From contig JAUPFV010000005.1 of NCBI GenBank assembly GCA_036936605.1, positions 234,699,770 to 234,763,769 of the forward strand: a stretch of 64,000 bases of DNA, given 5' to 3'. The notes beneath the pieces are model-generated. The model searched no databases. It had not been told where the DNA came from and worked only from the letters and a program-made list of their open reading frames with translations. Shown piece after piece: positions 2,037 to 61,190 of this stretch; positions within the stretch are counted from its first letter, which is position 1; every line of letters starts with the position of its first letter. Source of the stretch: Limnanthes douglasii subsp. nivea (Eukaryota; Streptophyta; Magnoliopsida; Brassicales; Limnanthaceae). A program made the translations under genes and the position numbers.

Positions 2037-5000
2037 ATGGATTTAAGCGACTTAAATGACAATTGGAGCTGCAACGCTGATGATTTCCTTTCGGAGGAGG
2101 AGGAGCCGCTTACTGATCACTTGGAGAGCGTTGCGGAGGAAAAAATCTAGTTTTTTTAAACACAGAACAAAATTTTGCATTTTCGTGCCTTCAACTGTAC
2201 ACTTCCACGCAAGAACATGCGTGGAAGATGCCAGATCTTCGCATGAACATGCGAAGATTTTGTCAAATCTTCGCACGATCATGCGAAGATCTGGCAACAT
2301 CTTTGCATAAAAATGCGAAAATCTGGCAAAATTGGTTTTACATGCCTTTCTGGTTAATTTTTGGGTTCTTCTTGGTTTTACATGTTTTTTTGGTTCAATA
2401 TTGGGTTTGTCTTGGTTTTACATGCCTTTTTTGTTGAATATGGGGTTTGTCTTTATTATTTGACTTGTAAATACATGTTTGTGTTTGTGTAGGAAGCGGC
2501 CGAAGCACCATGTCACATGACGGATTATAGTCAAATATTTAAGACGGATAAATTCTTAACCAAGGCGGAATTGATCGAATGGGTTGACAAAGAGAGCAAG
2601 AGTATAGGATTTATTGTCGTGGTAGATAAAGATGACGATGGTAGTAAAAACGGTAAAACACCGCGGTTATATTTTAAGTACGAGAGGCACGGTGTTTACA
2701 AGCCTAGGCCTAAACCGGGGATTGTGAAGAAACGACGAGATTGTTCATCCAAAAAATGCGGATGTTCGTTCATGCTTAGGGGCAATCCGGTGTTAGAAGC
2801 ACCCGGCTATTGGAAATTGGTAGTTATAATTGGAAAACACAACCACCAACCCTTCTTGCATTTGGATGGTCATTCACGGGCCGCGAGGTTAAAGGCGGAA
2901 GAGGAGGAGTATGTTCGCAAACTCACAACAATCGGTTCTCGGCCAAGAGATATATACCGTGGATTGAAGTTAAGAGATCCGGAAAATGTATCTAGTATGC
3001 GTACCATCTACAACATGCGGCACAAACACCAATTGGTTGATAAAGCGGGCAAATCCCAAATGCAATACTTGTTTGGTAAGTTAAAGGAGCACGAGTACTA
3101 TGTTTGGGAGCACACAAACAAAGAAACCGACGAAATCCTAGAATTGTTTTTCGCACATCCCACGAGCATCGATTTGTTGCGCACTTTTCCTCAAGTGCTT
3201 ATAATGGATAGCACGTACAAGACTACAAGGTATAAACTTCCTTTGCTAGAAATAGTTGGCCAAACTTCGACGAAAAAGACCTTTTGTATAGCTTTTGTTT
3301 TTATGAGCTCGGAGAAAGAAGAGAACTACACGTGGGCAATGAGCGTTCTAAGGAGAGTGATGGTGAACAACATGTGCGCATTACCAAATATTATCGTCAC
3401 GGATAGGGAGTTGGCTTTAATGAACGCTATCGATGAGGTATTCCCGGATGCAACTCATTTGTTATGCACTTGGCATATAAACAGGAACATTTGCTCATAC
3501 TCTAAGAAAGTGTTGCCCAAAGCGGACATGGGGGAGGAGTTCTTAGAGTTTTATGTCGCGTTTCAACATTCGGCGACGATCGAAGAGTATAAAAAAAACC
3601 TCACCGACCTTCACACAGCCTACGCATATTGTCCTAAGGTTCTCGAGTACTTGATGAAACAATGGATAGACCCTTACGGACACAAATTCCTTAATGTCTA
3701 CACTAACAAGATTAAACATTTAGGGAACCATACTAGCAACCGGTGAGTTATATTATCATATTTTTACATTACTATGTTTAACTAGTTGTTAGACTTGTAA
3801 CTAATCTAAGTTTATGGTTTAGGGCGGAGAGTGCTCACTCTAGTCTAAAACGGGCAATCGGCACAAGCCTATGCACTTTTGAGCAATTTGGGGATAAAGT
3901 TCATGCGTTGCTTCGCATTCAACACTCTACCATCTTCGAAACGTTCGAACGGAGTTTGTTTCGTCCTAGACAAGCATCTAGGGGAGCTATCTTTCGCGAC
4001 ATCAAAGGTAAAATTTCATGTACGACCATTCAAATATTAGAAGAAACTATTAGAAAGGCCGGGGATTTGTGGTTCACTCCCGCAAAGTGTGGTTGTGTAA
4101 TTAGGACAACACACAATTTGCCTTGTGCGTGTGAGTGTGATGTGATCGCGAAAGAAGGTAGGTCGATTCAAACGAGTGAATGTGATGTATATTGGAGTAC
4201 TTTAGCGATCAAGCCTAGGGAAAACGTTGGTACCGAAGATGAGCTTACAAGAAAGCTATCCTTAATTGATAGTACCATACGCGGTTACGGTCCACAAGTA
4301 CAAGATCACATCATAAATAGGATGATGCAAATCCTAGATCCCGCTACAAGCCATGTGTTGGAACCTAAGGAACCGGTTGTCACGAAAGGTCGGAAAAAAG
4401 CCGGTGTCGACAAGTCAACTAAGCGGAACCCATCCGGGTTTGAATACCCTAGTGTAGGCGCTAGTAGTACTCCCACCACGATAGGTAGCACGGCCGCGTC
4501 GGCGGTTAAGGCATTTATAGTACGCAAATGCAAAGATAAAGCACCACCGAAAAAAGAGAAAGCGACTCGATGTAGAAAATCGAATAAAGGAAAAGGATTG
4601 AGCGCCTACGGGAGTTGTTTTCCCGAGTACTTGCACGAGTACATAGCTACCATTGAAGACGTTGCTCCGGACGGTAATTGCGGATTTAGGGCGGTAGCTT
4701 TGACGATTAAAGGCAATGCGGACGCATGGGAGGAAGTGAGAAGGGATTTGATGTATGAACTTTCAAGTCAACGTGATCTTTGGGAAATGGTTTTTGACGG
4801 TGCAGAACGTGTTGACAATCTATTGCGGAGATTGGATTGTTTCAAAATGTACGAGAGCGGAACTAGGCACTGGATGACATTACCCGACTATGGGTTGGTG
4901 ATAGCCACCCGGTATCAATGTATAGTATACCATGTCTCTCTCCAACTATCATACACGTATCTTCCTTTGCGTGGTGTGCCTCCAAGATCATGTCCTATTG

Positions 5001-5325
5001 TCGAAGTTGGCATTAGTTTCGTACACGATAATCATTTCATGAAAGTAAGTAAACTAGTACATTCTTGATACTTAGATTTCATTTTATCAAATAATCCGCG
5101 ACGTATTTAATGTTTCTATATAATTGAAATTTTCAAATTGTATTAGACGGACCGTTGCCGGATATATACCCAATGTGGTTTGCGTTCCGCACTTGCGCTG
5201 AAGTTACAAATTGGGCCATACCAATAGGCACACGTCTCAACAAGTATCACCAAATTAAACCAGCACAACCTCCGACATTAAACGATGGCGATCATGAATG
5301 CTACGATTTGACCGGGGATGCATAA
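2037..5325 (+). CDS. MULE transposase fused to an OTU-type cysteine protease
   Basis: Proposed exons: 2037-about 2148 (acidic first exon, donor unclear), 2493-3742, 3823-5044 and 5137-5325; the last three are open and in phase (886 residues). Counting from the Met at 2517, a FAR1/WRKY-GCM1-type zinc cluster is seen at C76, C81 and the HNH at 108-110. A MULE DDE core follows with IMDSTYKT (D231), VTDRELALMNAI (D296) and LLCTWHI. Exon 3 continues with ESAHSSLKR and a SWIM-like cluster (CGC then PCAC, Cys in place of the usual His). The C-terminal part is an OTU protease: DGNCGFR with catalytic Cys codon 4679-4681, and His codon 5033-5035 in DNHF. The transposase should bind the TIRs and cut and join DNA; the OTU substrate is unknown (ubiquitin-type by family). 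The acceptor of the last exon is CAA here but CAG in the duplicate at 8498, so splicing may fail and reading would stop at 5068. Confidence 0.85.
2202..2330. repeat. Cluster of short hairpins in first intron of the MULE-A transposase
   Basis: At least three adjacent inverted repeats share a CGCA-six bases-TGCG core but have different arms: 2202-2227 (arm CTTCCACGCA, loop AGAACA), 2233-2258 (arm around ATCTTCGCA) and 2266-2292 (arm around AATCTTCGCA). A weaker fourth lies near 2300-2325. They lie between the first exon and the acceptor at 2491-2492. Confidence 0.8.
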
Positions 5326-5516
5326 TGCTTTGTTGTATTGTAATATTTTGTGAGACTTGTTTTTTTTTAATCCTTTCGAGACACATTTCGCCACCTCCGA
5401 CTACTAGACTTATGTTGTTTTTCTTGATAATATCTATGACTTTTACTTATGCTTTGTAGATGTGCCCAAAAAAAAATTGTTTTTTAAGCGGCCGTATGAT
5501 TTTTTTTACCAAAACA

Positions 5517-5953
5517 GAGCCTTAATAGGTACCCTTTGGCCATGATTTTTGGTGGAAGGCCAATTTTTTTTTTTTTTGATTTCCAACCTCAAATGTTGTT
5601 AAAACCATGTTTTGAAACCATTGGCAAGCATGAAAGTTCCAAAAAAAATTAAAAAATGCCCCAAAGCCCTTGTTTTATTTCTGGACAGTGCCTTTTTTGG
5701 CACACGTTTTCGTGTGCATGTACAAGAGCACGCAAAAATGCGCGTGCAAACGTACATGCACACGAAAACGTGTGCCAAAAAAGGCTCTGTCCAGAAATGA
5801 AATTTGAGCTTTGGGGCATTTATGATTTTTTTTGGAACTTTCATTCTTGCCAATGGTTTCAAAACATGGTTTTAACAACATTTGAGGTTGGAAATCAAAA
5901 AAAAAAATGGCCTTCGACCAAAAATCATGGCCAAAGGGTACCTATTAAGGCTC
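5517..5953. repeat. 437-bp near-perfect palindrome, copy 1
   Basis: Both ends carry the same sequence in inverted orientation (GAGCCTTAATAGGTACCC on the left). Complementarity continues through nearly the whole length to a central GCACGC/GCGCGTGC stem, giving arms of about 215 bp. Overlapping open frames on both strands are a by-product of the symmetry and not genes. It could be a foldback element or a nested palindromic insertion; a clear target duplication was not found. Confidence 0.9.
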
Positions 5954-6163
5954 TAAAAAATGGGGAATTTTTTTTTACATAAACTGAAGCCGTAAGGTTT
6001 AATCATTCCAAAAACTAAAACTACTATTACGAGCATTAGTTTTAACAAAAAAAACAACAAGCTCAACATTAGTTTGTGCAAGAAAATAAAACATGGAATC
6101 GAGATATCACGTACGGCCAAACATATACTGCCAAGGAATAAATGCGGGAGATATTTTAGAGGC

Positions 6164-6177
6164 CTCGTTATAGCGAG
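6164..6177. promoter_or_regulatory. TIR-like palindrome upstream of small gene
   Basis: CTCG-TTATAG-CGAG, followed by CTATAATGA at about 6200. It resembles the inner TIR motif TTATAGTGAGA and sits 160 bp before the start at 6337. A copy is at about 9532-9545 in unit 2. A role as a transposase-binding or promoter site is inferred. Confidence 0.45.
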
Positions 6178-11648: not shown

Positions 11649-13995
11649 TCAGTCTCTGTACTCGTGAGATATGCGGTATATCTCATCCAAAGGATCCCGA
11701 AAGCTATCAAAAGTAACGCCGGGGTGTCTACGGTCGTACTCCTCCATCTCTAGTATGCGCGAAGTCAGCTCGTGCAGTGTGGTCGCATGTGTGTGTGGTG
11801 TAGGGTTCACCCCAATCTCCGCATCATCTCTGTCAGCCTCTGGATCAGATATGATGTACCATAAGTTCCTCGTAACCCACGAGGAGTAGACCACAGTGGT
11901 ACCATCCTCCTAACCAGGAACATACCTCGCACCCCTCAGACTCTCGTGAATACAGTGTGACTCCCAGTTATCCCAACTGAATGCATCCCAGAGGTAGAGG
12001 GTATTCGCACGACGATGTCTAGTAGAACCGGTGAGAAGAGGACGCAATGGACCAGGAACCTGTATTTGAAAAAAAAGTCTAAACTATGTACCACACATGC
12101 GCAATACAAACAATATTAATATTTCGAGTTACAAAATATTACCCGCTGAAACCGACCGAACTGTCTAGCCACCCGCAGCGGATAGTACGCCTCGACAATC
12201 TCCGCCGCCTTCAGCGTCGCATCTATCCAGGCTATATCAGCGGTACCTCGAGCACCTCGCATGATCGTATACGGCGTGAATGATACCTGTAAAATATTAA
12301 CATACCATTTATCATTACCAACTTAAATTATATATACGATAATTGAAATGAAACTGATTACAACTAACATCCTGCTCGGTGAAGCTATCCAGACAAAGTC
12401 TAATACCCTCTCGAGCCTCCTGGCTCTGTCGAAACTTAGCAAGCGCATGAAGGCATATAGTAGGATGTGCGCTACTATACCTCGGGTACTGATGAACTGC
12501 AAACGCCGAGAAATGGTCGTAAATCCACGTCTCTAACATGGCGAAAAAACCAGATATACCCGAAGTAGAGTGTAGGTAACCTCTGCCTAGCTGGTAGTAG
12601 AGCTGCGCCAGTATCATCTGCCCCCAGTTATACCTCGCGGAGCTGGTGTAATCGTCGATGAACTGCAAGTAGTCGAGGCTAATGTTGTTGCCCGACTTGT
12701 TGGCCAAAATGGTACAACCAAAGAAGTGCAACAAATAGCCCCTCGTAGCTCGTTTAGCATCCCCGTTAGTGATCTCCTCATCATAATATTGATGGGTGCA
12801 GAATCTCCTCTTCAGCCATGCAAGGCGCACATGCCTCTTACCGCCGCATTTGTTCTCCTTTATCTCAGCCTCAAGCTCCGCAGCGCTGCACCCAAGTAAG
12901 CGAGCGTATCTCGCAGGTACGCTCATAAGCAGTGGGGTACTCATATATCTCACAGTTGTGACCGACAACTGAGAGCCCCGTTATCATGTGGACGTCATCC
13001 AGGGTGACGGTCATCTCCCCGAACGAGAAGTGGAAACTGTTCGTCTCGGGATGCCATCTCTCAAGAAATCCCTCAATCAAGTGGATGTTAGTAGACCACT
13101 TACCCAAGGCCTCAACCAAGGGCCAGAAACAGGTGCTCCTAACCTGTGCGAGTACCGTCTGCTGCCGGGATTTCAAGTCCCAGCTACTATGTGTGTGGTA
13201 CATCGCATAACAGCGCAGTGACTGTCGGACCTGCATGCATTAAAAACATACAATATATATAAACATATACGCAATCTAAAACTTAAGATAATCCAATAAC
13301 TAACATATAAATAACCAATAACCAATAACCAACAAATACAATGCAGTAGTGAGTGTTAAAAATTAAAACCTAAACTCATCATAACATATAAACTCATTGT
13401 AACCTAAACTAATAAAATTTATAACACAAACCTAGTTTCAGTAACATATAAATTCTTAACATATAAATTCAGTAAATTTATAACACAAACCCAATACCAA
13501 ATCGAAATCCAATACCAAATCCAATGCAGGTAATATTCAATAGACAATGTTAAAAATTAAAACCTAAAATCATTCTAACATATAAATGAATTCTAACCTA
13601 ACCTAAACTAAACCAATATAAAATCCAATCCAGTAACATATAAATTGATTCTAACCTAAACTAATAAAATTTCTAACACAAACCAATAATAATAATAATA
13701 ACTTTAAAAAGTAAATTAAAACTATAAAACTTACATCGCCTTTGAAGACGCTGTATGCCTCATGCTCTCTATGCGAATGAAACGTAGAATATAGGTCTAC
13801 GACGTGACCATTGTATCTACGGAAGCGCTACTCTGGAGATACGCGACGCTGGACTGGTGGGCGCTCAACTGCCTATAAGGTCCCTCTCACACGGACCCGG
13901 ACACTGCGAGAAGTCTCACCGCGAGTGACCTCCTCAGTCTCCTGATCCGTCTCGTAGTCTCTAACGGTAACTGGAGGACGTGGGCGATGAGGCAT
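11649..13995 (-). pseudogene. Plant mobile domain (PMD, aminotransferase-like) gene of MULE-A, decayed
   Basis: Proposed exons on the minus strand: 13735-13995, 12369-13230, 12143-12286 and 11649-12059, with GT-AG borders. Exon 2 carries the PMD core: FLERWHPETNSFHFSFGEMT, VTLDDVHMITGL, then WLKRRF, LLHFFGCTI and WIYDHF, as in MAIN/MAIL1-like proteins and many plant transposons. Exon 3 has PLRVARQFGRF. Breaks: TAG at 13873-13875 and 13828-13830 in exon 1, a one-base frame shift near 12905 in exon 2 (exon length is one base out of phase), and TAG at 11910-11912 in exon 4, where the unit 1 copy has CGG. The role of PMD cargo in MULEs is not known. It is convergent with the transposase gene. Confidence 0.78.
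13240..13730. repeat. A-rich repetitive first intron of the PMD gene
   Basis: Low-complexity sequence with many copies of AACATATAAA, CCTAAACTAATAAAATTT and AACCAATAACC. It lies between PMD exons 1 and 2 and has no open frame. Confidence 0.6.
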
Positions 13996-14070
13996 ACTGC
14001 ACAAGACAAAACCGAACAATTAGAAGAGTTGAAACTATAAAACAAAAAAAAACATGAAATTGTGAAAATT

Positions 14071-14244
14071 CGCAATTTAATGAGTGGATTTGGGAAATCC
14101 ACGCATTAAATTGCGAAGATTTACCCAGAATCCACATTATGTGGATTCGGTATTTCCACGCATGTTCTTGCGTGGAAATACCGGATGCCCGCATGTTCTT
14201 GCGTGCATCCGGTATTTCCACGCACGAACATGCGTGTAAATACC
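14071..14244. repeat. Array of five hairpins upstream of the PMD gene in MULE-A
   Basis: Five consecutive inverted repeats: 14071-14115 (arms of 21 bp with one mismatch, loop GGG), about 14128-14149 (GAATCCAC/GTGGATTC), 14148-14183 (15-bp perfect arms starting CGGTATTTCCACGCA, loop TGTTCT), 14183-14210 (arms GGATGC/GCATCC around the same CGCA-TGTTCT-TGCG core) and 14211-14244 (arms GGTATTT.../AAATACC). They lie 76-250 bp upstream of the PMD start codon. Confidence 0.88.
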
Positions 14245-14712: not shown

Positions 14713-14721
14713 TTTCAACAT

Positions 14722-38449: not shown

Positions 38450-38452
<3 letters not shown>

Positions 38453-40840: not shown

Positions 40841-41037
40841 AACCACTGTTTTGCTGTTTTTTTAACAGAGAGAATGTGATTTCGAGATGGCCACTCAGAA
40901 TCACATGCTCTCTGTTAAAAAAACAGTAGAACAGTGGTGTTGAAAAATAGGTGATTCCGAGTGGCCATCTCAGAATCACCTGTTTTTCAATTTAAAAAAA
41001 AACATGTGATTCCGAGATGGCCACTCGGAATCACATG
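40841..41037. repeat. Hairpin array upstream of the second PMD gene
   Basis: Three successive inverted repeats share the core GATTCCGAGATGGCCACTC (with small changes) but have different arms. The first (about 40841-40940) has long nested arms including TTTTTTTAACAGAGAG and its complement. The second (40940-40990) has arms starting TTGAAAAATAGGTGATTC. The third (41003-41037) has perfect 14-bp arms CATGTGATTCCGAG/CTCGGAATCACATG. Confidence 0.9.
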
Positions 41038-41269
41038 CTCTCTGTTAAAAAAAACTGTAGAACAATGGTGTATCTTTTTAGGTTTTGATTTGTTGTCCTC
41101 TGCTTTTTCTAGCTTTGTTCCTTATGACTATTTGAGTATGATTTAATGCATTTCTAGTGGATGTTGTTGCTATTCATATACTATAGTGTTATTAATTGCT
41201 TTAAGATTGGTGGTACCCTATTGTGGTTTGAAATGTTTTACATTGTAGATATTGTTTTATGTTTGTAGT

Positions 41270-43204
41270 ATGGGACCAAGAAAGCTACTCAAGAGAATTT
41301 TGTGTGGCTCTTCATAATCCGCTCCAAATACCACAAACAATTCAGATATTGTTGAGACGCTACAACCTTTTCAAATTGTTGCCCCTGATCCTACGTCCCG
41401 TTCGGTTAGACATAATCGGCGCGATGCAAGGAGGGAACCATCTTCGGTTGCAATACCTCAATCAGAATCGGAAGATGATGAAGCTGAGCAAGGCGATAAT
41501 GAAACAACATTAACCGCCGAGAAAGAGTCCTTTTTAGCATGATTTCCGCATATACGCCACTACAAAGGTTTTACGAACCATACGACGTACCATGTTTACT
41601 ATGGCCGAGTAAGTTATTTTGAATATAAGGGTTACTTTAAATATAATCTATAAAATATTGTGCAATTGTTTTTATTTTTCTATAATAACGTTTCTCTTTT
41701 ATGTATCAGGAAAGAGGTGGACGTCCTTTGCGGTTTTTTGCCACGGGAAATGCGGTCAATCATTGGAAGCTGCGGTACCAAACTGGTGTGCGTGAGGTTG
41801 TCGAGTCCACCTCTTTTGGACTATTGTTGGTTGCCCTCCATCGTTGGAGTAGCGAGGTACCTTTGGTAGCCGCTTTCGTAGAACGGTGACATCATGAGAC
41901 GACATCATTTCACTTTTCTTTCGGCGAGATGACCGTCACTTTAGACGATGTGGCCATCATTACCGGGTTACCGATATGCGGTAGATTGTTGGAGGTGCGT
42001 AGAAGCAACGGTGTAGAGGAACGTGCGAAGCTGATACATGATGTTCTCGATGTGCCATACGGGGAAGCTTTAGCGGAGCTCGAACCGTGTAAAGGTATCG
42101 GTCTACGGTTAACTTGGCTAAGAGATTGCTTCTCCAACGAGCGTTTTCAAGACGTAGGTGGTCGATTAAGGAGGATTGATGTTCAACATTGTGCGAAAGC
42201 CTACTTACTTTATCTCTTTGGGTTTTGTCTATTTGTAGACAAAAACGGATATTACGTGAAAGCATATTGGTTACACGTGCTTGATGACCTTGATTCGTTG
42301 GGATCATATGCGTGGGGGATGCATATCCTTGCGGAGCTTTATAGTGGGTTACGTATGGCTTCCAAACATTCTACGAAGACGATGAGTGGATTCGTACAAC
42401 TACTCGAATGCTGGATTTTTGACCATTTCACTCGCTTTCAGGTACCTCATTCGGAGGGATTCTATCCCCATATACCGCACATTTGTACGTGGGCAACACC
42501 CAAACGATACCACTCGTTAGAAGAGTTTGGAGATCTAATTCAATCATATAGATTGACACTTGACCGATTAGATATATACTCGGTACGTTTATATCCTAAC
42601 TTAATTTATCTATTATATTTTTGAATACATTTTAATATATCGTGTTCGGTTGTATTCTATTTCAGGTTATTTTTCAGCCGTACGAGTATTGTCGAATGTT
42701 GAAACCCCTTCACGAGCTTGCGTGGTTTACCGGTGGATTGAAATTCATGGACAAAACTGAGCCGTACCAACCACTTAGAGTTTCCCGTCAGTTTGGATAC
42801 ATCCAATGCTTTGGAGATTTATTTGCAAAACTTGCTCCTAGGCGCGGTCGCTTGTCAAATACGATGATTGACTTTAAAAATGATGTGTGGGAAAATCGGT
42901 ACCAACACATAATACCACCGGAATGTAGAGGAATTCTTATCGAGGAAGGTAATGAGATAAGTACGACCGTACCGGATTACGATAATTGGGTTCGTGAAAC
43001 TCTATGGTACGTAGTTCCTAATGCACCTCGAGAAGAAGATTTTCCTATAGGGGAAAAGCCACAACATTTAACCCACCAAGATAATATCACTGGAGGTTTA
43101 AAATTCTCAACACCTACGAAGATTATGTGGAAGATATGACCGGTGAAGAGTGTCGTACTGCCTTAAGACATTGCATTCATATAAGCAAGGCGTATACAAC
43201 ATGA
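41270..43204 (+). pseudogene. Second plant mobile domain (PMD) gene, decayed
   Basis: Exons 41270-41608, 41710-42582 and 42666-about 43204 read in phase. The PMD core is clear: TTSFHFSFGEMTVTLDD, IITGLPICG, LTWLRDCF, AYLLYLFGFCLF, ECWIFDHFTRF, and PLRVSRQFGYIQ. It is related to the MAIN/MAIL1-type domain and to the PMD gene of MULE-A. Breaks: TAA at 41315-41317, TGA at 41540-41542, TGA at 41887-41889 where the MULE-A copy has a Trp codon (ERWHPE against ER-stop-HHE), and a frame shift near 43100 that changes the C-terminus. Hairpin repeats lie on both sides (40841-41037 and 43349-43387). It may be a small transposon of its own. Confidence 0.82.
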
Positions 43205-43348: not shown

Positions 43349-43387
43349 TGCACCTGATTCCGAGATGGCCACTCAGAATCAGGTGCA
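43349..43387. repeat. Hairpin downstream of the second PMD gene
   Basis: Same core as the upstream array (GATTCCGAGATGGCCACTC) but a new arm pair TGCACCT/AGGTGCA, giving 15-bp arms with one mismatch. Confidence 0.88.
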
Positions 43388-43759
43388 ACATTTTTTTTAA
43401 CAAAACACAACTTTAATAAAAAAACAGAGACATTGGACCGGATTCCGAATAACCGTCTAGGAATAAATGCACATTTTTTTCGAAAAATTACATACTATAG
43501 CTTTGCCTTTCTCAATGATTTCATAAGTCAAGAAATAGACAAGAGCATATTTTCGATTTGGAGTTAAAAAGATAAAAAGTCCGAAAGGCCCATAGAGTAA
43601 GAAGCTCAAGAAATGACTAAGTTAACCCATATATCTAAACGCGACTGAGTGGTCTATGTGATTTCTAGGCCGATATTTGCTTCATGTGTGGCAACCAATC
43701 AACCGAAAAGCAGACGATAATCGACAACTGTAACACCCCGTGAAAATCAAATCGGAAAA

Positions 43760-49855: not shown

Positions 49856-50559
49856 TTAACGAGAAAAGTACCGCTAAATATCCACTCAAATAACTAATTA
49901 TCCGGTAGCACCCAAATTTTGGATAGTGTTACTTAGTACATCGACTAAATAATTGGACAAAAATATCCCTCGACTATATATACCCAAATTTCATTTCAAA
50001 TCCATTTATTTCCACCTTCCCATCACCCTAAACAAACCAAAACACGTCTAATTTTAGAAACCACCAGAAACCGTTCGACTTCGTGATACTCTCTCTCTCA
50101 AACCCAAAACCCCTACAGCTTCTCATCGTTCGAAACCAGTCGTCGTTCGCACCTTCAACGGAATCGCACCGGTCACCGTCTCTTACTCAGTCCAACGATT
50201 AACCACTTCTGTTCGAGAAAGTTACCGTGAAGTCGTCTCCGACCAGTGAACAGTTCAACGTTTAGAAGTAACAAGGTAAGTGTTATCGTGGAAAGTGTAC
50301 TTTTTCTTGCATTTTTGATGACTTCGAACCACTATTTTATTTTATTTCACGATCGGCGTTGCTTTTTATACCGGAATGAAGTATTTAGTAACGATAGTTG
50401 GTCAGTTTCTCGGTTTATTGTCAAACGCAGGGTAGAAGTTTGGTTGCATGTAATGTTAATACTTTCCTGAGAACTGTGATGTATGTTAGATGTGCATTAG
50501 GTAGTTGATTGTTGATTTTATATGTAAAACATATAGTTGTTCGCATCCTGTAAGTATCC

Positions 50560-50830
50560 CCTGTTGTACAGTTCGCATCCTCATCACCCATGATGCAAAC
50601 AGTTCGCAGCTCATATCTGTTTATATGTCATATCAGTTCGCAGCTTGACTGAATGTTTATGCTATGTATTTCGTAGCTTGTATTTACAAACAATTCGCAA
50701 CATAACCTGCGAATTGATTGTAAAAACTCTACTGATATAAATAGACAATTCACAGCTTGTCATGCGAATCGTGTGATACTTTACCTGATGCATATAAAGT
50801 TCACAGCTTGTGATGCGAGGTGTGTGACAC
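50560..50830. repeat. TTCGCA/TGCGAA hairpin array 1 (5' leader intron)
   Basis: Repeated TTCGCAKCnT and TGCGAA half-sites in the intron before the Ulp1-gene start codon; the donor of this intron is probably at 50275. Confidence 0.7.
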
Positions 50831-51904
50831 TCCAACTGATTTGTGTTTGTGCAAGAAGTATGACAACAAAACCAAACTATTACAAATCAGGGTTGGTGAG
50901 CCTTCTGAAGCTTTTTAAAGAGATGGGTATTACCCGTGCCCACATTGAAGCTGCAAGAAACACACCATTCTATATGCTTTTGAAAACGAATTTCGACATT
51001 CGTAACGAGGCAGAGCTGTTGAAGAAGAAATTCTATTGTATCATTCAGTATCTCGTCGAGAGGTTCTCTGTCGATCGAGACGCCTTCCGTATTGGATCGA
51101 AGTTTGTAAAGCTAACTGAAGACGATGTGAAGGTCATATTCGGGATGAAACATGGCATAGAGAAAATACGGTTAACGAAAACCAGAGCATTTCACAACAA
51201 ATACGCGCCCGACGAGGAAGACGAATCGAGGATGATGAAGAAATACTTCATGGGTAAAACTAGCAGGAAAGTAGGACCGTCAAATACTAAAACAATAACG
51301 AATGTCATTATAAAGGTATGTGTAAAATCGACTTCATCTTATAAAGCAGGATTCTGTACTTTTCTAACATAACATGTTGTCGTTGGTTTTACAGGCAGGT
51401 ATAGAGAAGGCCATAAGCGAAGGGGGGAGCATGAGTTGGAAGACGTTGCGAGGTTGTTGATACTGTTTTTGTGCTCCACCCTATTCTACTCCGTATCTGG
51501 AGATATCCTGGGTTGGAGCACGGTTTATTATGTTGAAGACCTCAGCAAAATAAACAGTTACGACTGGTCCGGATCAATATTGTACAAGCTTCGACAGTCT
51601 ATCCGGAGTTGCTTAGCAATCGAAAAACCTGATCGAGTCGTCGGTTGCGTTGCCCTTCTAATTGCAAGATTGATCTATTAATATAAAAATTAGTTATGTA
51701 CAGAGTATCTTAATGATAAAACTTGTCCCCTTGCAGCCATTCTTCATGGAGCACACAACAGTCGACCTCGAGGTAGCAAAGCCGACCTTGATACCAAGGT
51801 TTTTCAAATGGTTGGGATTAGAGTGCCAAGCAACAACCGTGGCGCTGCTCCTTAGAATACCCAACCTGAAAGATGATTAGGTATAAGATTTATATAGGTA
51901 TTGA

Positions 51905-52140
51905 ATTGGGGTTGCAAACAGTTCGTAGCATATCATGCGTTTTGATTGGCGTTATATTAGTACAATGTATCAATCATTTCGCAGCCTCAGATACGAAATG
52001 AGTTCGCAGCTTATTATTTTCACACAGTTCGCAGCATATTGGTTACACACATTTCGCAGCTCAGCATGCGAGTTGTTTGCAACTCTAACATGGATAGAAT
52101 TTCACACAATTCGCAACATATAATGCGAACAGTTTATAAA
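51905..52140. repeat. TTCGCA/TGCGAA hairpin array 2 (intron)
   Basis: In the intron after the exon ending at 51880: ATTTCGCAGC, AGTTCGCAGC, CATTTCGCAGCTCAGCATGC and ACAATTCGCAACATATAATG occur in succession. Confidence 0.75.
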
Positions 52141-53314
52141 AACAATTTGGTTGTCTACACCTTCATACTTTCAAAACAACCCGCTTGCATCTATTTACTT
52201 ACATGTGCCTCTGTTGGTAGGTTTTCGAAGGTCCACTACGTCTTACTGAGGCCAAAGCGAAGCTTTCAGAGAAACAGTAGAAAGTGGAGATGCAGATGAG
52301 GAAGTTATTTCACCAGAAGAAAGACCAAGGAAGAGGAAGAAAAGCACAACCCCAAAACCAAGGAGACGAGCATCACAGAAACAGAGAGAAACGAATCAAG
52401 TGATATCTCCCAGACCCGAACAACCAAGACTCCCCGAGACAACGACTCCACCACCAAGACTCCTAAGCAAATGATTCCACCACAACCGATCGGCACATCT
52501 AGGAAGGAGCCCGACAACAATGGCACAACCAGTATGAGTAAAACAATCGGTGATTTTGTCCTCAAATGCAGAACGCCTAATCCAAATAAGTCTTCAACTG
52601 TTGCTGAATCAAAGCGTTTGAAGACATATGCCGACAAGAACAAGTACGAGAGAAAGATAAAAAAACTGGTCAGAGAAGTAAGTATGAAATTGAGCCTTAA
52701 ATAATCGCTATAACCACCACTTAATATGTTTATAAAACGTATGCTATCATTTTTTCAGTTGGAAGAATTGAAACGGAAGATAAAGGATCTTGAAGCACAA
52801 CAACTCCACAATACAATCTCTCAGCCAATTTACCAGATGGGAAGCCCAGTAGCTGAGAAGGTACCAGCATTTCCAGATAGAGCAGCATCCACTGAAGAGA
52901 GGCATGACGATGGGAACCATTCACCCATACCGGTACCATCTGGAAGGATGCAAGAAGAGTTGTTGGTGTCCATAGAGATGGACACCACAGAGACACAGAC
53001 GGAGAAAGAAAGACACGAGTCTCCTCCGAATGAGCAACAGCTCGTACTTCACAGGGCAAAGGAGATAGAAGTGGCAGAACCAGACAGCCTAGAAGATGTA
53101 AGTGGATCAAAAGTTCACTAAAATTCAAATATCTTATTTATTTGTTGTGATGAAATTGTTTCCTAATAATATTTACCGTTGTATAAATATTCAAACAAAG
53201 TCAGTGTATCTATTTAAAACAGTCAGCGGGTTTTCTAGTTGAATACATATTCAAAACAATGCATCACATGATATGATGATATCAAACAAATATCAGGATT
53301 GTTGTGTAGTCATG

Positions 53315-53440
53315 GACGAACAATTCACATCGTATATTGCGAATTGTTTTTACTATAGTTGACTGGTTATTCCACAATTCGCATGTTGAGCTGCGATTTG
53401 TTTAAGATTGACCAAACAAATATCAGGTCAGCATGCGAAT
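53315..53440. repeat. Hairpin array 3 (intron)
   Basis: CAATTCACATCGTATATTGC followed by GAATTG, then ACAATTCGCATGTTGAGCTG, in the intron before the Gln-rich exon. Confidence 0.7.
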
Positions 53441-53508
53441 CATTCGCGACTATGATAATAGTATACTTAACCATTCCACTTTTTTATTTGAAAATTTGTA
53501 TGAAACAG

Positions 53509-53880
53509 GAGACCGACAGACAACAACACCAACAGTAGCAACAACAACAACAAGAACAACAACAACAACAACACCAACAACAACAGCAACAGCAAGTTCA
53601 ACACGACCAACAGCAACAAAAACAAGTTCAACACGACCAACAGCAACAAAAACAAGTTCAACACCAACAACAACAACAACACCAACAACAGCAGCAACAA
53701 TAAGTTCAACACGAACAACAACAACAACAACAAGCTCAACACGAACAACAGCAGCAAGAACAAGCTTAACACGAACAACAGCAACAACAACAACAACGAC
53801 ACAACAGCAACAACAACAAGTTCAACAACAACAACAAAAAGAACAACAAGAATAACAAGAACAACAACAGCAGCAACAAA
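53509..53880 (+). repeat. CAA/CAG repeat encoding a poly-Gln tract, with four C-to-T stops
   Basis: About 370 bp of CAA/CAG codons broken by VQH(D/E) repeats. In the Gln frame there are four stops at places where CAR is expected: 53536 (TAG), 53701, 53767 and 53853 (TAA). The 53767 case is clearest: GCTTAACACGAA against the neighbouring GCTCAACACGAA. A frame change occurs near 53800. Confidence 0.85.
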
Positions 53881-54399
53881 TAGCCTTGGCAAAGAGAGAA
53901 AGGCTAACACAAGAGATAGCGCCGCAAGAGTCAGAACATGTCAATTCCTCTGAGAAGATGGAACTACTAAGCCAGGAAGGACCATCCTTTGAAGACAACA
54001 CCACATATGAAGATGCACCTCAAAGACCAACGGTGGTGTGCGCAAAGTCAGAATTGCTAAGCCAATGTGAAATTGTAGCACCAGTACCAAAGCAATCGCA
54101 AGCTCCAGAGTCAAACGATAACACAGTAGGTTTACCCAATGCTTTTGTTAATGGTATTTACACTCAAGTTTCACAGACATTTTTAAATGAAATTGATAAT
54201 GTATATTACGATTCTATAATACAACGGTCTTTGGAGAACATGTCGGAGGATGACTTTAATGATTTCTACCGACACGATCCAGATCCTAGGCCGAACAAGT
54301 CAACGATATTGGTCATCGCTGACGGTGTGGTAAGGGTTATTTTGAATGATTTTGCAGCATACAATGAGAATTGTGTGAATCTATTTTGAATTATAAAAA

Positions 54400-54545
54400 C
54401 GAATATCAGGATAGCATGCGAACTGTTCAGTGGAACCTCGAATAGTTCGCATGCTATCCTGATAGATACCTTGAAATGTATTCAGCTGGAACCAAACAGT
54501 TCGCATGTCAGCATGCGAACTGTTTACATGCGAACTGTTTGGGTT
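54400..54545. repeat. Hairpin array 4 (intron)
   Basis: Includes the strong inverted repeat at about 54494-54524 (AACAGTTCGCATG and CATGCGAACTGTT around TCAG), plus repeated GCATGCGAACTGTT copies. Confidence 0.85.
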
Positions 54546-55479
54546 CATTATCATGATAATGACTGACACTCTTTCGATTTTTGCTATTTACTAAGCTCGA
54601 GCCAAGTAAAGAGACAAATTTCCATACTTTTAATCTACAGACACTAACACAGCCTCCAGTGGCAGAGGAAGAGGAATAGATAATTATAACAGAATGGGAA
54701 CCGCCAAAATTTGAATACAACGGCTGGCCAAAGGCCACAAAAGTAACTGACCGTATCTCTCTCGGAGAATACCATAAAATATAGTTAGTTAAGGCCTACG
54801 AGAGTGACACCCCTGATCCAGTAGTATGACAATTACCAGAGTCCAAATTTGCATACAGAATTAGAGTGCAAGCGAGTGATGTGATGGCGCTATCTTTAGA
54901 ACTAGAGCTGTACGTAAAGGTATCCAATTGTCAACCAATTCTGTTTTTAATGTTTCAAACATGTCTTGTATATTTAACATAAATAAATAACTCCCTTCTT
55001 AGGCTGTGGACGCTTGGATTCGAAAGATGCTTGAAAAAGCAGACTTCAAAGTTCCATGCCCAAAACTTAAAGGAGTGTTCCATGACAGCGTAATGATTTC
55101 GGGCATGACTACGGTAAGTTTAGCTAAGGTAAATTTCAAAGTTTCAGAAAATGTTGTCATTGTAATGTACTGTCACTTGGATGCGGCATCCAATGGAATT
55201 AGGATGGGAAGTAACAGATTTGGTGGACGCTGCTTTTAGTAAAGCGCCCGAAAACCCCAACATCATCATCATTCCAATATGCACCAAGACAAAGGACCAG
55301 ATAAACCATTGGACGTTGCTCGTCATTGACGTCGACGGCAGGTCAGTAACAAACTACAACCCACTTCTGCCTAAACTGAAAGCGATAGACTACACCACAA
55401 GGACACCTATCAATCTGGTAATATTCCCAGTTATTAACTTACCTTTAAACATATTTTAAAATATACATGATCAATACAT

Positions 55480-55715
55480 GATGCGAACTGTGATCAAGGT
55501 ATGCTACAAAATGTGAGCAAATCAGTTTCAATTTGCAGCGTATCCATAAAAAAGTTCACAGCCTAGGATGCAAATCGTTTTGGCTGCGAAATGATTGTAG
55601 AAAAATTGATTGAATACCAAACAATTCGCACCCTATGCTGCGAATTGCTTGATATGTACATGTTGGATTGGTTGTCACACAATTTGCAGCCTATGATGCG
55701 AATTGTGTGGTAACA
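55480..55715. repeat. Hairpin array 5 (intron)
   Basis: Contains 55622-55647 (CAATTCGCA/TGCGAATTG) and about 55676-55709 (CACACAATTTGCA/TGCGAATTGTGTG). It sits in the intron directly before the exon with the protease Cys. Confidence 0.88.
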
Positions 55716-56012
55716 ACTGTTTAAGTTTTTCTGCTGGTTCCTAACAGTAATTATTATAGCCAGATCAATTATTTGGTGGGAAAAGGATTCCTACCTAAAT
55801 CAAGCACATGGTGGAAGGTGAAAAACGAAAGAAAAATTTCACAACAAAAACCTGGCACCCTGGACTGTGGTATTTTTGTCTGCAAATACGCGAGAGATAT
55901 TATCCATCATGGATATGTGCAGAAAAAATACGAAAAAGATATGGTCACTGCCTTCAGAGAAGAAATTTTTGATTTCTTCTTAAACGAAAAAGACACCGTG
56001 AAGTACGGGTGA

Positions 56013-57896
56013 TCCGAAGTAAAACATTATGGTTTTTTGGTGTAAATACATTGATTGTAATTTTTTGGTGTGCATACATTCACAGTATTTTTTGTTGTAC
56101 ATAGACTAATTAAAATTTCAGAAATGTGCAATTCCCAGATATATGTAGGACATATTTCTTATCAAACATTTCGCATGATACCCTGATATATAAGGGTTAG
56201 TTAATATTCGAACAATTCCAACCAAACATTTCGCAGCAACTCCTGGTATATCTTAAAAAAGGATTCTCACCTAACAATCCGCATCCTAACCGGATAGATG
56301 CTTAATTATCACTAAACGATTCACAGCCACTCCTGGTATATCACATTAAACAACAGTTCGCATCAACTCCTGGTATAAATATAAATAATTCAAAATATAT
56401 AGTTCAAGAATACGAACAGGCTATGGCGTATGCCTTGGTAACCGTTAACTGCATTGAGCACTCAAAAAATAATCTAATCACCAGAGGTCCAGAGCCCATT
56501 AATTACTGATTCGACATGGAGGCTATGTAATGATTAATATAGCCATACCACCACCTCATAAGCTCAGATTCCCTCCTTTCCCTATAAATAACACTAGTAA
56601 CCAGAGGCTAATTTTAAAACAAACTCCATATTTTTTTAAAAACAGCTCTTGTTCTCTTCATATTCCACACAGTCATATCGTTTTCCACCACCACAAACTC
56701 ATACTATGGTTCACTTGGTTCTCTGGGTGACTCCTGGTCATCCTTAACCACCAACTGGAGCGATGACTTGATCATGCCATCAGCACCACCAAACAGCCCA
56801 GTCTCCGTCCTTGATTTAAACATAGAGGACTACTTCTCTGCTGACTCTCAACCAGTGTAAGTTGTTGCAATGGTTGCTGTTGAACCTCAGCCAGAAGAAG
56901 TTCCAATGGTTGCTGCTGAACCTCAGCCAGAAGAGGTTCCAATTGTTGCTGCTGTACCTCAGCCAGCAAAGGTTCCACCTCAGATGGCATAGGTTCCAAA
57001 CAACAAAAGGAAGAGGGACGACGAAGCCGGTCCATCAAGGATAAATTTTTTATGCATGATGGATGTAGATAACGAAGAGGAAGAGGAAAAACCTCATGAT
57101 CAGCACGCAGAGGAGAAAGATGGTGAAGAATCCTCTACTGATGACTGATAGAGTTGCCTTTTGTTGTTTGCTTTTTTGGAATGCAACTAACAAACACTAA
57201 TAGATTGTAATTAGTGTGAACATTTGTTAGTGCATGAAGACTGTAATCCTCTTTTTTGTAATCCAATTTTTTTACACACTTTTAATCATATATACGATTC
57301 GTATCCAATTACCATTTGCAAACAATTCGCATCTTAACCTGATATATTACTTGTTTATCAATATTACTGATTTCATGCAATTCACAACATACCATGCGAT
57401 TTGCAATCCATTGAAAGTCCTGATATTTGTATGAAAGCACGATTCGCAGCTTACCATGCGATGTGTGAGCAAATATCAAGAATTCTAGTTGTTCTCAATT
57501 CACATCATATCATGCGATATACAAGCAGCCCGAAGTCCTGATATCTGTTCTGGTCATAATTCGCATTTGAGCATGCAGATTGTGATATTTTGTTTGTTGA
57601 TGGAGTATTTTAGAGTTGAAGGCAATTCACAGCCTATGCTGCGAATCGTAAGCAAATAAGAGTCATGATATTTGTTTGAAAAAGCATTACGTTAGAGCTC
57701 AACACAATTTGCAGCATAAAAATACTGATAGTTGTTTGATATGATTTTACTAACGATACGCATCCTGCTGAAATTTCACACACATCGCATTAAAAACTGA
57801 TAGATGTTTGCAACATGATATCAACATATTGTACACAATACGTGATGCGAATTTCAAAAAAAATGTGTACATGAATAAACAACTGTAAAAAAAATT
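56013..57896. repeat. Spacer between the convergent MULE-B genes, with hairpin arrays 6 and 7
   Basis: Arrays at 56160-56370 and 57295-57880 contain ATTCGCAKCnTA and TGCGAAT half-sites with TCCTGATATTTG phrases between them. Between them (56519-57150) lies a possible coding remnant on the plus strand with tandem repeats of the type QPEEVPMVAAEP and an acidic tail (DVDNEEEEEKPH), broken by stops; its identity is unknown. Confidence 0.6.
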
Positions 57897-57900
57897 GTGC

Positions 57901-60551
57901 TTAAACTGGAACATCACAAGTCCTCCTGTTATGGCCTGATTTCGAACAACAGCCACAACTCAACTGCTTGGTTGAGATTTCTCCTCTAGATGAGATTCGC
58001 TTTTTCTTAGGCCTTCCAGAGCGTCTCTTAACGTTCAGAGGCAGAACTTCAACAAACGAAGGATCGTTATCGTTGGACCCTTCCCCGAAATCCGTTATAG
58101 CTGGTATGCTGAAAGAGTAACTTTTCCTGTAATTCTTAACCGTAAAGAAGGGCTCTATTACGGTAAAAGGATCTTGGTCCGTATACTATATTGCCGCTAA
58201 AGCATGAGAACATGGAAAACACTCTTGTTTCCATGATCCGCAAGAACATTTGAAATCCAACAGATTAACAAAAGCCACAGGATTTGAAAAGACTTCGAAC
58301 ATGGCGGATGACGACTTACTTACCACCCAACTTCGGCACATGTCAACATTCTGCTTTAGCTTCTTCTCATACTCGGGGACCAAATTAGTACTCCAGCTGA
58401 GACCCTCTTCGTATCTTCGTGAAACTTGAGTCATAATCAAGACTCTAATCCAGTCAATAAACTCAACAATCGGTAGGCCGCAATATTTTTTGATCTGATT
58501 GTTAAACGATTCTGCCGCAGTAGAAGCCATAGAGCCGTATCGTTTCCCTTTTACGTAAGCATGCGCATAATTTTTCGGGGGTAAATTTACAAGAAAATCA
58601 CTAATTCTGTCACCACATTCAGATATAAAAACTGTTAGTATATCTTCAAAAATCTCTCGACTGGGAGCATAAGCAAGACGATGGAAGAAACTCAACATCC
58701 TTTTTTATAGTCTCCGTTAGTATGTTCCGGTTTTGCTTTCAAATTCTGCATGAGATGGAAATAACAGTACGCATGATAGCAGTTTGGATAGAAGACAAAA
58801 ACAACATTAACGATACAAGAATGACGATCTGAAATAAATGTGATCTGGCGATCCAACAAATGTGGTTTCAAACACCCCAAAAACCACATCCAATTGTCCC
58901 AATCTTCAATGCTAACTACACCAACAACACCAGGGAAGAATCCTGGAAAACGACAGATCAAATAAACACTACAGCAGTACTCAAAACGTTTAAAAAATAC
59001 AAACAGTTCGCATGCTTCCCTGAGATTTGTTCTCAAAACACAGGCTGCGAAATGTGTACAACCCCAGCTGCGAATTAATCACAGTTTCAATAACTGATTA
59101 GTTCGCAACCTCGAATGCGAATCGTTATGAAATATCAGGATTACCACAACAATGGTGTGCATATATATGATGCGAACCGTTGCTCAAAATTTCATGGCAT
59201 AATTTGCAGCCTCTATTGCGAAATGTCATCACCTAAACAACACTGCATAATTCACAGCCTATGATGTGAATCATTCTCGAATATCAGGATTCCATCATAA
59301 TGGTGTGCATATATATGATGCGAACTATTGCACAAAAATTTCAAACAAAAACATCATAACACATTCAGATTAACTAGTTAAATGTAACTAACCGTTATTG
59401 TCGTCCTTTGTTACGACAGTAAGCAAGGTACCCTTGTACTTGCTATATAAGTGGGTTCCATCGACAAACAACATTGGACGGCATGAATGAAAACCTTGAA
59501 GGGACAAACTGAAGGCTACAAAACAACGCTTGAATCAGTTTCCAGCTGATAATTCCAACTGACAGTCTAAAGTAATATCCCGGTTCTTCAATCGTTTGAA
59601 GTATCCGCTTAGTAAACTAAAAGAACTTGAACTATCTCCAAAAACTCCCCTCCTAGCATTCTCTAAATCATTCCATGACAAACGGTAAGAGATGTCAAGA
59701 CCGTAATCTTGTTTGAAAGTCGATTGTATGGTTTTGGCTGTCAACGAATGGCAGGTCCGGAGAGAATCCTGAATTTCCTATGCAATCAAATTTGATGTCA
59801 AATGCCTGTGCCGCTTATGCTTCTGGGAGAAAACGGGACTGCAAGTATGGTGCGGAACATACTTCTTGATCATCATCAATCTGGTGCTGGAATCAATAGA
59901 TGCATAAAGCCTCCATTTGCACCCGCTTGTGAACTTATTTTCACAATAAGCAGTGATCTTTGTTGCTGTGTTGTGCAGGTATTTGAAAGCAAAACCATGC
60001 TCTAAAGCAAACCTGCACAAAGATAACCTGAGACCTGCAACACCCTCTTCAAAAGCTTGACCCACTCCTGTAATAGCATCAGCCCAACCAGCAGTAACAA
60101 GTTGTTTTTTTCTCTGTTCAGAATTAACTAAACCGTTACTATTCTCCGTGCTAACTAGTTGATCAGGAGATGGTTCTCCCAAACTCAAGCTACGCTCTTT
60201 ACACTTTACACCACAATCCTTACCACCAGAGCTCTTATCACCAGAACTTTTTTGACCCGAACACTTATCACCAGAACCCTTATCGAAGACGTGTTGTTCT
60301 ATGAGAAAACTAACTCGTTTTAAACGCTCCAAATCAAGATATAACACCAACCCAACAAAATCCTTATGGTTATTAAAGAAACAATTATTGTGATCCCCGC
60401 ATGAGTAGGTAATTAGGTAGTCACCTGTAACAAGCTCCTCCCATGTGTTCTCCACATAAGCTTGGATACTTTGAAAGCTTTCAAACTCCGTGAAAGGCAT
60501 AATTGCGGTTTGGTGACCATATTTAAAAATACAAACTCGTGATTTGGACAT
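57901..60551 (-). pseudogene. mudrA-like: MULE-B MURA-like transposase, decayed
   Basis: Two exons, 59393-60551 and 57901-58942, would encode about 733 residues. The order is an N-terminal region; the MuDR DNA-binding domain (FALEHGFAFKYLHNTATKIT, then CKWRLYAS and HHTCSP); the DDE core (LFVDGTHLYSKYKGTLLTVV; ITFISDRHSCIVN; CYFHLMQNLK); SAAESFNNQ-type linker sequence; a SWIM finger (CSCGSWKQECFPCSHALAAI); an RSGRPKKKR basic patch; and a CGCCSKSGHNRRTC zinc knuckle. Breaks: TAG at 59778-59780 (expected CAG), TGA at 59535-59537 (expected CGA in the FKR motif), one base lost in the A-run at 58701-58706, and TAG at 58186-58188 (expected CAG). Repairing only these would leave one frame, so decay is recent in molecular terms. 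Hairpin array 8 lies in its intron. Confidence 0.9.
58990..59340. repeat. Hairpin array 8 (transposase intron)
   Basis: AGTTCGCATGCTTCC, GGCTGCGAAATG, CAGCTGCGAATTA and a repeated GGTGTGCATATATATGATGC segment (about 59154 and 59303) inside the transposase intron. Confidence 0.75.
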
Positions 60552-60614
60552 ACCTTACCCTGCACTAAATATTAGTTATTAATCCCAAAAATAAAGTGCA
60601 AATTATTTATTACT

Positions 60615-61190
60615 GCATTAAACATATCGCATCCTGTTTTGCGATTTGTGTATCTATATGCTGCGAACTGTTTATAATTCGTATCCTATCCTGATAGTTG
60701 TTTGTAAATCAACTAAAAACTGTCCTAATATTTGTTTTGAAATATAATACTCTAAAGTTCTACGCAGTTCGCATTCTAGCATGCGAATCGTAAAAGTAAC
60801 TAAAAAAGTCATGATATTGGTTTGAAAATGCAATACTTTATAGTTTCATACAGTTCACATCCTATCATGCGAAACGTAAAAAAGTCCTGATATTGGTTTG
60901 AAAATGCAATACTTTAGAGTTCTACATAGTTCGCATCCTAGCATGCAAAATGTAAAATTAACTAAAAAAAATCCTGATATTAGTTTGAAAATGCAATACT
61001 TTAGAGTTCTACATAGTTCACAGCCCATCCTGAGTTTTGTAAGCAAGTAAGAGTCATTATATATGTTTGAACATTCATATAATTCGCAGCAAATTTTGAA
61101 ACAATTCTTTCATGTAATTCGCACGTAATAATGCGAATTGGTACACAATTCGCCTCTTCTTCGTTGAATAAATCAAACAATTCGCATCTT
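60615..61190. repeat. Hairpin array 9 and ~80-bp tandem units upstream of the transposase
   Basis: Three units of about 77-90 bp share TCCTGATATTGGTTTGAAAA and GCAATACTTTAGAGTTCTAC followed by a TTCGCA...TGCGAA-type hairpin (starting about 60812, 60889 and 60977). A good hairpin is GCAGTTCGCATTCTAGCATG with CGAATCG after it, near 60766. Confidence 0.75.

Follow-up and report, generated by a model that had tools for sequence, protein, structure and literature searches.

The closest described counterparts of the arrays reported here belong to the VANDAL elements of Arabidopsis, whose VANC proteins carry the domains DUF1985 and DUF287; VANC expression removes methylation, and VANC21 binds a short motif whose copies in VANDAL21 lie in tandem repeats of non-coding DNA, both within introns and upstream of the transposase (PMC5735166). 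Some VANC genes, KIU (Kaonashi), carry a captured Ulp1 domain, according to a review that names Sasaki et al. 2022 (PMC13317346). Ikeda et al. 2017 speculated that the PMD (plant mobile domain) captured by Mutator-like elements (MULEs) serves the anti-silencing of transposable elements (TEs) (PMC5418596), and template switching has been reported to create and maintain hairpins (PMC8794818). In this work we analyzed a stretch of nuclear DNA of 64,000 nt (the window) from Limnanthes douglasii subsp. nivea (contig JAUPFV010000005.1), which holds two MULEs, MULE-A (1773-14712) and MULE-B (49861..61876), and between them a PMD locus (~40.2-43.5 kb). Each of these units carries arrays of a dyad, that is, of inverted half-sites at fixed spacing. 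We hold, at a little better than an even chance, that each array is a set of family-private candidate sites for an element-encoded anti-silencing protein of the PMD or DUF1985 type, comparable to VANC.

Hairpin arrays with a repeated center had been noticed in these units in a preliminary description of the sequence; clusters are present in all three, but they are of two kinds and not of one. The dyad of MULE-A, CGCA-N6-TGCG (type A), occurs there seven times in exact form. A first cluster (2202..2329; dyads at 2208, 2240 and 2272 and a decayed one at 2304) precedes the transposase exon at 2493, and a second (14069..14244; exact dyads at 14102, 14159, 14190 and 14221, a decayed one at 14071) forms nested palindromes upstream of the PMD gene of this element. 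The dyad of the PMD locus is GATTCYGAG-N7-CTCRGAATC (type P), and GATTCCGAG-N7-CTCGGAATC, allowing three mismatches, is found five times in the locus: three dyads, at 40878, 40953 and 41008, form an array (40842..41054) in which the pairing arms differ from dyad to dyad, a fourth (43349..43387) lies downstream of the PMD gene, and the fifth (43441..43465) is decayed. The dyad of MULE-B is TTCGCA-N8-TGCGAA (type B); between 50.1 and 61.2 kb, half-sites occur in nine stretches outside the coding model and dyads in eight of them. These are the leader of the plus-strand gene (50540..50819, half-sites and dyads; dyads at 50694, 50749 and 50800), four long inter-exon gaps (51978..52129, dyads at 51978, 52053 and 52110; 53324..53439, at 53324 and 53378; 54351..54534, at 54351 and 54500; 55482..55702, at 55555, 55625 and 55683), the intergenic region (57326..57851; 57381, 57443, 57499, 57560, 57626 and 57832), a gap of the transposase gene (59007..59324; 59007, 59102, 59203 and 59251), and the region upstream of the transposase gene (60626..61186; 60626, 60768, 60854, 60930 and 61118), where the dyads lie partly in an 87/76-bp tandem array. 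The tandem arrays at 2235-2329, 40943-41054, 52001-52061 and 60711-61029 contain dyads or half-sites, and the remaining dyads are dispersed. The CGCA/TGCG center ascribed earlier to both MULEs is shared in its letters but not in its geometry, given the spacers of 6 and 8 nt, and no finding supports a common origin of the arrays.

The spacing is as characteristic as the half-sites. TTCGCA is present 52 times in MULE-B, against 5.45 expected; pairing TTCGCA with TGCGAA at up to one mismatch gives 18 dyads at a spacer of 8 and 0-1 at every other spacer from 0 to 20, and 25 of the 52 exact half-sites have a partner with at least 5/6 bases at exactly +14, the nine other offsets tested giving 0 or 1. 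The core of the PMD locus, GATTCCGAGATGGCCACTC, has four matches with up to three mismatches, against none in 100 shuffles. Within the window, each dyad is confined to its own unit (A exact, 7/7; B at up to one mismatch, 18/18; P at up to three, 5/5); relaxing type B to two mismatches leaves 28 of 30 dyads within MULE-B and two outside. The same motifs were counted over the host genome (1.78 Gb): exact TTCGCA-N8-TGCGAA is found 15,513 times versus 10 for the reversed-pattern control, and these sites make up most of the 16,708 exact dyads of this type with spacers of 5 to 11 (reversed control, 113); CGCANGAACATGCG is found 635+627 times versus 2+1, and GATTCNGAGATGGCCACTCNGAATC 212+210 times versus 0. 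That each motif is private to its family is an observation on the window and on the few copies covered.

The arrays had also been placed outside exons, and this holds. The coding model of MULE-B, which combines reading frames, domain hits and splice signs and was drawn after the sequence had been inspected, covers 6,111 of 12,016 nt and contains none of the 52 half-sites (P 9e-17) and none of the 28 dyads found at up to two mismatches; the model of MULE-A contains none of the nine listed sites. Both MULEs thus show a family-specific short motif repeated in non-coding DNA, as VANDAL elements do. The inter-exon gaps of MULE-B (51317-60554) are of two sizes: the five short ones (47-82 nt) have no dyads, and the five long ones (310-399 nt) have 2-4 dyads each.

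For the MULE-B family, copies elsewhere in the genome reveal which parts of the dyad are held constant. Ten stretches were fetched around genome-wide matches, among them six MULE-B-type places within L009-L016 and two MULE-A-type copies, L017 and L018; L013 has MULE-B-type dyads without a protein match. Constraint was scored as deviation from the group majority in 72 groups of homologous MULE-B-type dyads, which are not independent, the copies being related. The deviation is 3.5% at non-CpG half-site bases (99/2813), 9.7% at CpG bases, 10.5% in the flanks, 12.6% at outer positions 1-4 and 16.5% in the spacer, while the same classes displaced by 60 nt all deviate by 8-11%; when only MULE-B serves as reference (21 groups), the figures become 4.3, 10.5, 9.9, 12.7 and 14.6%, in the same class order. 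Non-CpG half-site bases in this family change two to three times less than the flanks, and the spacer changes more. Gaps follow the same course: in 151 directed comparisons the 20-nt dyad has insertions in 5 and deletions in 5, versus insertions in 37 and 40 and deletions in 40 and 30 in the two 20-nt flanks, so that gaps in the dyad are six to eight times rarer than in each flank. Directed comparison of copies was discarded as a measure of core identity, which it overstated since the query half-sites had been chosen exact; the group-majority deviations were used instead. Over 104 dyads from seven MULE-B-type places (57 without near-duplicates), the spacer and outer positions 2-12 show no symmetric covariation, except for position 8 (P 0.04-0.05, uncorrected), and outer position 1 covaries (55 paired versus 44 expected, P 0.008; non-redundant, 29 versus 22, P 0.02). 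A signal of arm compensation within the MULE-B of the window (P 0.002-0.012 over longer arm ranges; positions 1-3 not significant) was not upheld over the 104 dyads. Since half-site and spacing are held, the spacer is free and the arms hardly covary, the pattern in this family points to the footprint of a protein-binding dyad and not to a hairpin. CpG transitions make up 17 of the 31 substitutions seen in half-sites of the window, a share to be expected if methylation of these sites is frequent; read on the transcript, the half-site mismatches comprise 11 G-U and 8 A-C, with no clear G-U bias. Separately, divergence in the 8-nt spacer (16%) was seen to outpace that of the flanks (10%), which would fit a mutable spacer.

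The MULE-A and PMD families are of the other kind. Their arms were sampled at 40 places per core, among the matches listed on one contig, together with the window, L009, L017, L018 and L002-L008; exact cores were searched, and the cores of the sample are therefore constant by design. The MULE-A type yields 69 sites (65 distinct, 15 after merging similar arms) with an own-arm pairing of 0.60 versus 0.42 when permuted, and the PMD type 67 sites (66 distinct, 18 after merging) with 0.68 versus 0.53; for both, P is 0.00025, the floor of 4000 permutations. The window taken by itself gives P 0.0016 for MULE-A (7 sites; 0.083 for 4 distinct arms) and 0.017 for the PMD locus (5 sites; 0.083 for the 4 complete ones). 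Accordingly, the earlier statement that the arms differ and yet pair stands for these two families but not for MULE-B, apart from its outer position 1 and, weakly, position 8. The same description had offered two possible reasons, selection acting on folding or a mode of copying in which one arm is restored from its partner, and had proposed compensatory changes as a check. Clusters of at least four similar arms (five with 50 of 60 sequences for the MULE-A type; seven with 47 of 67 for the PMD type) show mostly one-sided changes: 48 of 53 changed pairs in the MULE-A type, with 3 re-paired and 2 changed on both sides but unpaired (both-changed expected by chance, 1.3), and 51 of 52 in the PMD type, with none re-paired and 1 changed on both sides but unpaired (2.4 by chance). 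The three re-paired cases belong to one MULE-A cluster, where 0.4 were expected, and there may be slight compensation or conversion in it. Between arm families, the arms differ as pairing blocks of 10-20 nt, and in one mosaic a single left-arm block faces two different right arms, paired at 12/16 and 6/16 positions. Point changes being mostly one-sided and the arms differing as blocks, arm turnover is mainly block-wise, and the block differences and mosaics suggest that blocks are copied or exchanged at the core, whether through template switching or through recombination between inverted cores. The copying half of the earlier proposal is favored in this form, and the evidence mostly weighs against the folding half. 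In sum, one family has a constrained, protein-type dyad with arms that do not compensate, and two have palindromic arms that change block-wise with little or no point compensation, so that the observation is real and larger than first described, and its central inference has to be split by family.

This same block-wise turnover is what a neutral account would lead one to expect, in which template switching during replication, unequal exchange and amplification of the elements multiply palindromes and tandem repeats that have no function. The mosaic arms of the MULE-A and PMD types, the location of some dyads within tandem repeats, and the reported capacity of template switching to make and keep hairpins (PMC8794818) all agree with it. 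The MULE-B type speaks against it: compared with the flanks, non-CpG half-site bases are better conserved and the spacer is less so, indels in the dyad are rarer, and the coding model is avoided; this counterargument is limited to that type, and the MULE-A and PMD types remain compatible with neutrality. As an explanation of the arrays as a whole we regard neutrality as unlikely, though it deserves some weight.

The dyads might instead be sites for the transposase of each element, used in transposition or in the control of its own promoter. FHY3/FAR1 proteins bind a CACGCGC site. Both MULE transposases have DNA-binding domains (FAR1 narrowly under the cut-off in MULE-A), and dyads lie upstream of the transposase gene in MULE-A and in MULE-B. 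Against this, the terminal inverted repeats (TIRs) of both MULEs have no dyads, the outermost half-sites of MULE-B being 285 and ~690 bp inside its ends; MULE-A has a separate, internally repeated TIR-like motif; the sites extend throughout the inter-exon gaps of both MULE-B genes; and the PMD locus showed no recognizable transposase in its reading frames, of which the domain scan covered the PMD pieces only. We find this explanation improbable.

The density of generic hairpins, by which the preliminary description proposed that its claim be judged, would have it fail: MULE-A has 1.00/kb (13; 6.0 in its own shuffles), the PMD locus 1.20/kb (4; 1.9) and MULE-B 1.92/kb (23; 7.7, largest 10), versus 1.14/kb (29; 16.7) and 0.63/kb (4; 4.8) in two inter-unit stretches and 2.26 and 1.90/kb (4 each) at the short window ends. 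As it does not set the units apart from the remaining window, density was rejected as a measure; what distinguishes the units is the repeated core. Stems of at least 18 pairs (loop 3-14, up to three mismatches) are all inside the three units (7/7), the longest elsewhere having 15, and the five stretches tested for folding have z-scores of -4.6 to -15.7. Selected hairpins, whether small-RNA precursors, splicing or termination structures, or cruciforms recognized by shape, would account for this folding, for the complementary variable arms of two families and for the three re-paired changes, but they are the least probable explanation, given that point changes in the arms are mostly uncompensated, the compensatory substitutions that mark stems of structured RNA being absent as a pattern from all three types, that the arms and spacer of the MULE-B type are almost without covariation, that G-U bias is not clear, and that an Rfam scan gave no match at the gathering score.

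Part of the case for a PMD-type protein lies in the genes beside the arrays. The PMD gene of the second locus (41689..43136, plus strand) matches the domain with E 8.1e-37 once its pieces are linked by an X in place of an in-frame stop. The PMD gene of MULE-A (12318..13239, minus strand, opposite to the transposase), first described as a separate locus, is contained in the element, as the TIRs and target duplication show; its piece 12318-12980 has a weak DUF1985 match (E 0.0049, below cut-off). In the PMD-type arrays examined at seven places, a PMD gene lies within 1.5 kb in four. The plus-strand gene of MULE-B (50863..56012) encodes an N-terminus that weakly resembles PMD, then a repetitive middle, and ends in an Ulp1 C48 peptidase. 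Searches with these proteins added little: a large protein database returned no homologues of MULE-B exon 1 and two for PMD, sequence searches of the PDB gave a best E of 0.66-1.4 and nothing useful, and the AlphaFold model of the PMD protein has a mean pLDDT of 42.

A further family came from a dyad-blind genome search with PF10536, in which 117 of the 14,303 first-look candidates were scored; there were 121 matches, and the best 30 loci were analyzed. Twenty-one of those best 30 loci, L111-L131, are close relatives with PMD (E 1.9e-44 in L118); of the two tested for transposase domains, L113 has a MULE domain and L117 a FAR1-like match below cut-off. They carry dyads of their own, TGTGCC-N4-GGCACA and GGTACA-N8-TGTACC (also readable as TGTACC-N3-GGTACA), seen for instance at L118:363-436 and 3238-3530, the latter kind in a 23-bp tandem. 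At least three of one own dyad kind occur in 20 of the 21 loci (GGTACA-N8 in 16, TGTGCC-N4 in 18, both in 14), against none of the nine other PMD loci L102-L110 and a maximum of three for any dyad in 60 shuffles of five loci; none of the A, B and P motifs was found in L102-L131. The 21 loci count as a single further family, not as 21 tests. That a fourth MULE family with PMD also has private dyads suggests that PMD and dyads are associated.

Fixed geometry, private half-sites, constrained in MULE-B, and PMD-type gene neighbors are the features that the first description overlooked, and the best single account of them, which we give slightly more than an even chance, is that the arrays are targets like those of VANC, a kind of system that would here include MULEs with PMD and sites built as dyads. 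In this account, a DNA-binding protein encoded by the element, most likely of PMD or DUF1985 type, would act as a sequence-specific anti-silencing factor like VANC; probably as two subunits, it would sit on two inverted half-sites 6-8 bp apart, cover its own family's leaders, introns and spacers, and clear silencing marks from them. The binder in MULE-B would be of the same type. For the MULE-A and PMD types, copying or exchange of the adjoining blocks may in addition take place at the core, with the long palindromes as a by-product.

Several observations weigh against target arrays of this kind. The link of the MULE-B protein to PMD is weak: the alignment score of its N-terminal part with PMD was reached by 1 and 3 of 2000 shuffles, comparison with the PMD profile gave a probability of 5% and E 0.007, and Pfam detected neither PMD nor DUF1985 in it. 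The partner genes in the window have broken frames. Among the seven places with PMD-type arrays, no PMD gene was detected in three, namely L005 and L008, over the stretches covered, and L007, where there is a FAR1-type transposase. The constraint test covers the MULE-B family only, and L009 has two exact A-type dyads beside its MULE-B-type dyads. A count of 6-mer dyads made without regard to motif singles out only MULE-B (18), with 6 in MULE-A and 4 in the 3.3-kb PMD locus, against 3 and 5 in two inter-unit stretches of ~12.7 kb and 2 or 3 in three others; the stretch with 5, of 12.8 kb, includes ATGATA- and AATGAT-type dyads, and a 41-bp minisatellite at 39.1-39.6 kb may be the source of its count. 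As this motif-blind count is weak for two of the units, MULE-A and the PMD locus, these depend on the genome counts for their support. As for the fourth family, its dyads lie outside the PMD frames in the loci examined closely but are crossed by other stop-free frames; GGTACA-N5-11-TGTACC is found 3,074 times genome-wide versus 518 in the control, only ~6-fold, and at several spacers; and two of the nine other PMD loci, L102 and L103, have other dyads, with a top count of 4, above all 60 shuffles, that are unexplained.

The remaining features of the units are as follows. MULE-A has TIRs of 40 bp (1773-1812 and 14673-14712; 39/40 identical) and a 9-bp target duplication, TTTCAACAT (1764-1772 / 14713-14721), and with its MULE transposase it is a Mutator-like element of the FAR1 type. 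The transposase (2493..5325, plus strand) has three exons in the coding model, with splice sites judged by eye, and matches the MULE domain (E 9.9e-29) and, narrowly under the cut-off, FAR1 (E 6.6e-6); it extends into a part, 3782-5065, that by eye resembles an OTU-type protease, with no match in Pfam. A search of viral contigs with this transposase found none. A 3-kb direct duplication (4944-7982 / 8306-11350, 98.4% identity) has doubled a foldback element with ~90% self-complementarity (5516-5954; copy at 8878-9321), which was judged not to belong to the dyad system, its sequence being different and 8 of 9 changed arm pairs being one-sided between the copies. Small reading frames of ~135-145 codons in MULE-A (6328-6762, plus; 7422-7832, minus) and in the fourth family (L118:3681-4082) are alike by eye and have no Pfam match above cut-off, one being Myb-like at E 0.12. 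By eye, a TIR-like motif, ~TCTCRYTATARYGAGAC, recurs inside MULE-A at 6164, 7125, 7906, 9530, 10493, 11272 and 14632-14712; it is a second motif system apart from the CGCA dyads, and its copies are candidate transposase sites. TIRs were sought around the gene of the second PMD locus and none was found. Upstream of this locus, the 41-bp minisatellite (39064-39611) shows, by eye, repeated ATGAT...ATCAT dyads. MULE-B has degenerate TIRs (68% over 94 columns; exact ends by eye), a target duplication was looked for and not found, and its transposase gene (57904..60554, minus strand) encodes a MuDR DNA-binding domain, a MULE domain and SWIM. A second motif, CCTGATAT, occurs 11 times in MULE-B, never in the coding model, and three times elsewhere; by eye, it sometimes comes after a half-site without a partner. 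On either side of MULE-B lie direct repeats (49286-49831 / 61902-62658) that are 65-83% identical. Between the units there are also one Copia-like and one LINE-like element.

The speculation on MULE-captured PMD (PMC5418596) becomes directly testable, with candidate targets in four families of one genome and one motif present 15,513 times. A sequence-only route to the targets of TE anti-silencing is also suggested, namely a search for family-private, fixed-spacing dyads outside coding DNA in elements with PMD or DUF1985 genes. More tentatively, and with rather less confidence than in the target-array account, PMD can be pictured as what directs a large class of TE-encoded anti-silencing factors to private inverted half-sites a few bp apart, the families diverging jointly in half-site, spacer and protein, and some cores being block-swap junctions; as a CpG lies inside the half-site in three of the four families, such binding could read methylation.

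A literature search of titles and abstracts, with subscription literature mostly out of reach, returned no treatment of dyad arrays in PMD-carrying MULEs. Among described systems, the targets of VANC21 and VANC6 in Arabidopsis VANDAL elements (PMC5735166) are similar in being short, family-specific, non-coding motifs of a Mutator-like element, often in tandem and beside the gene for a DUF1985-type protein with repetitive regions. The VANC motifs (YAGTATTAY; AGTTGTCC/AGTTGTAC) are 8-9 nt long and without CpG, whereas those described here are dyads of fixed spacing whose half-sites include a CpG in both MULEs and in the PMD locus, with long palindromes in two families; the terms "palindrom", "hairpin" and "inverted" are absent from the main text of that paper. 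The plus-strand gene of MULE-B, with its weakly PMD-like N-terminus, repetitive middle and C48 peptidase beside a MuDR-type transposase, resembles KIU; in contrast, MULE-B has degenerate TIRs and no DUF1985 by Pfam, and KIU-type elements are termed non-TIR MULEs in the review cited above (PMC13317346). In template-switch hairpins (PMC8794818), complementary arms likewise arise in single events, but here a constant core is common to hundreds of sites. Finally, MULE-A and the fourth family are MULEs carrying PMD, as in Ikeda et al. (PMC5418596); the PMD-transposase fusions reported there are from grasses and Amborella and are given without a target motif, whereas in MULE-A the PMD gene lies on the strand opposite to the transposase and the element carries candidate cis motifs.

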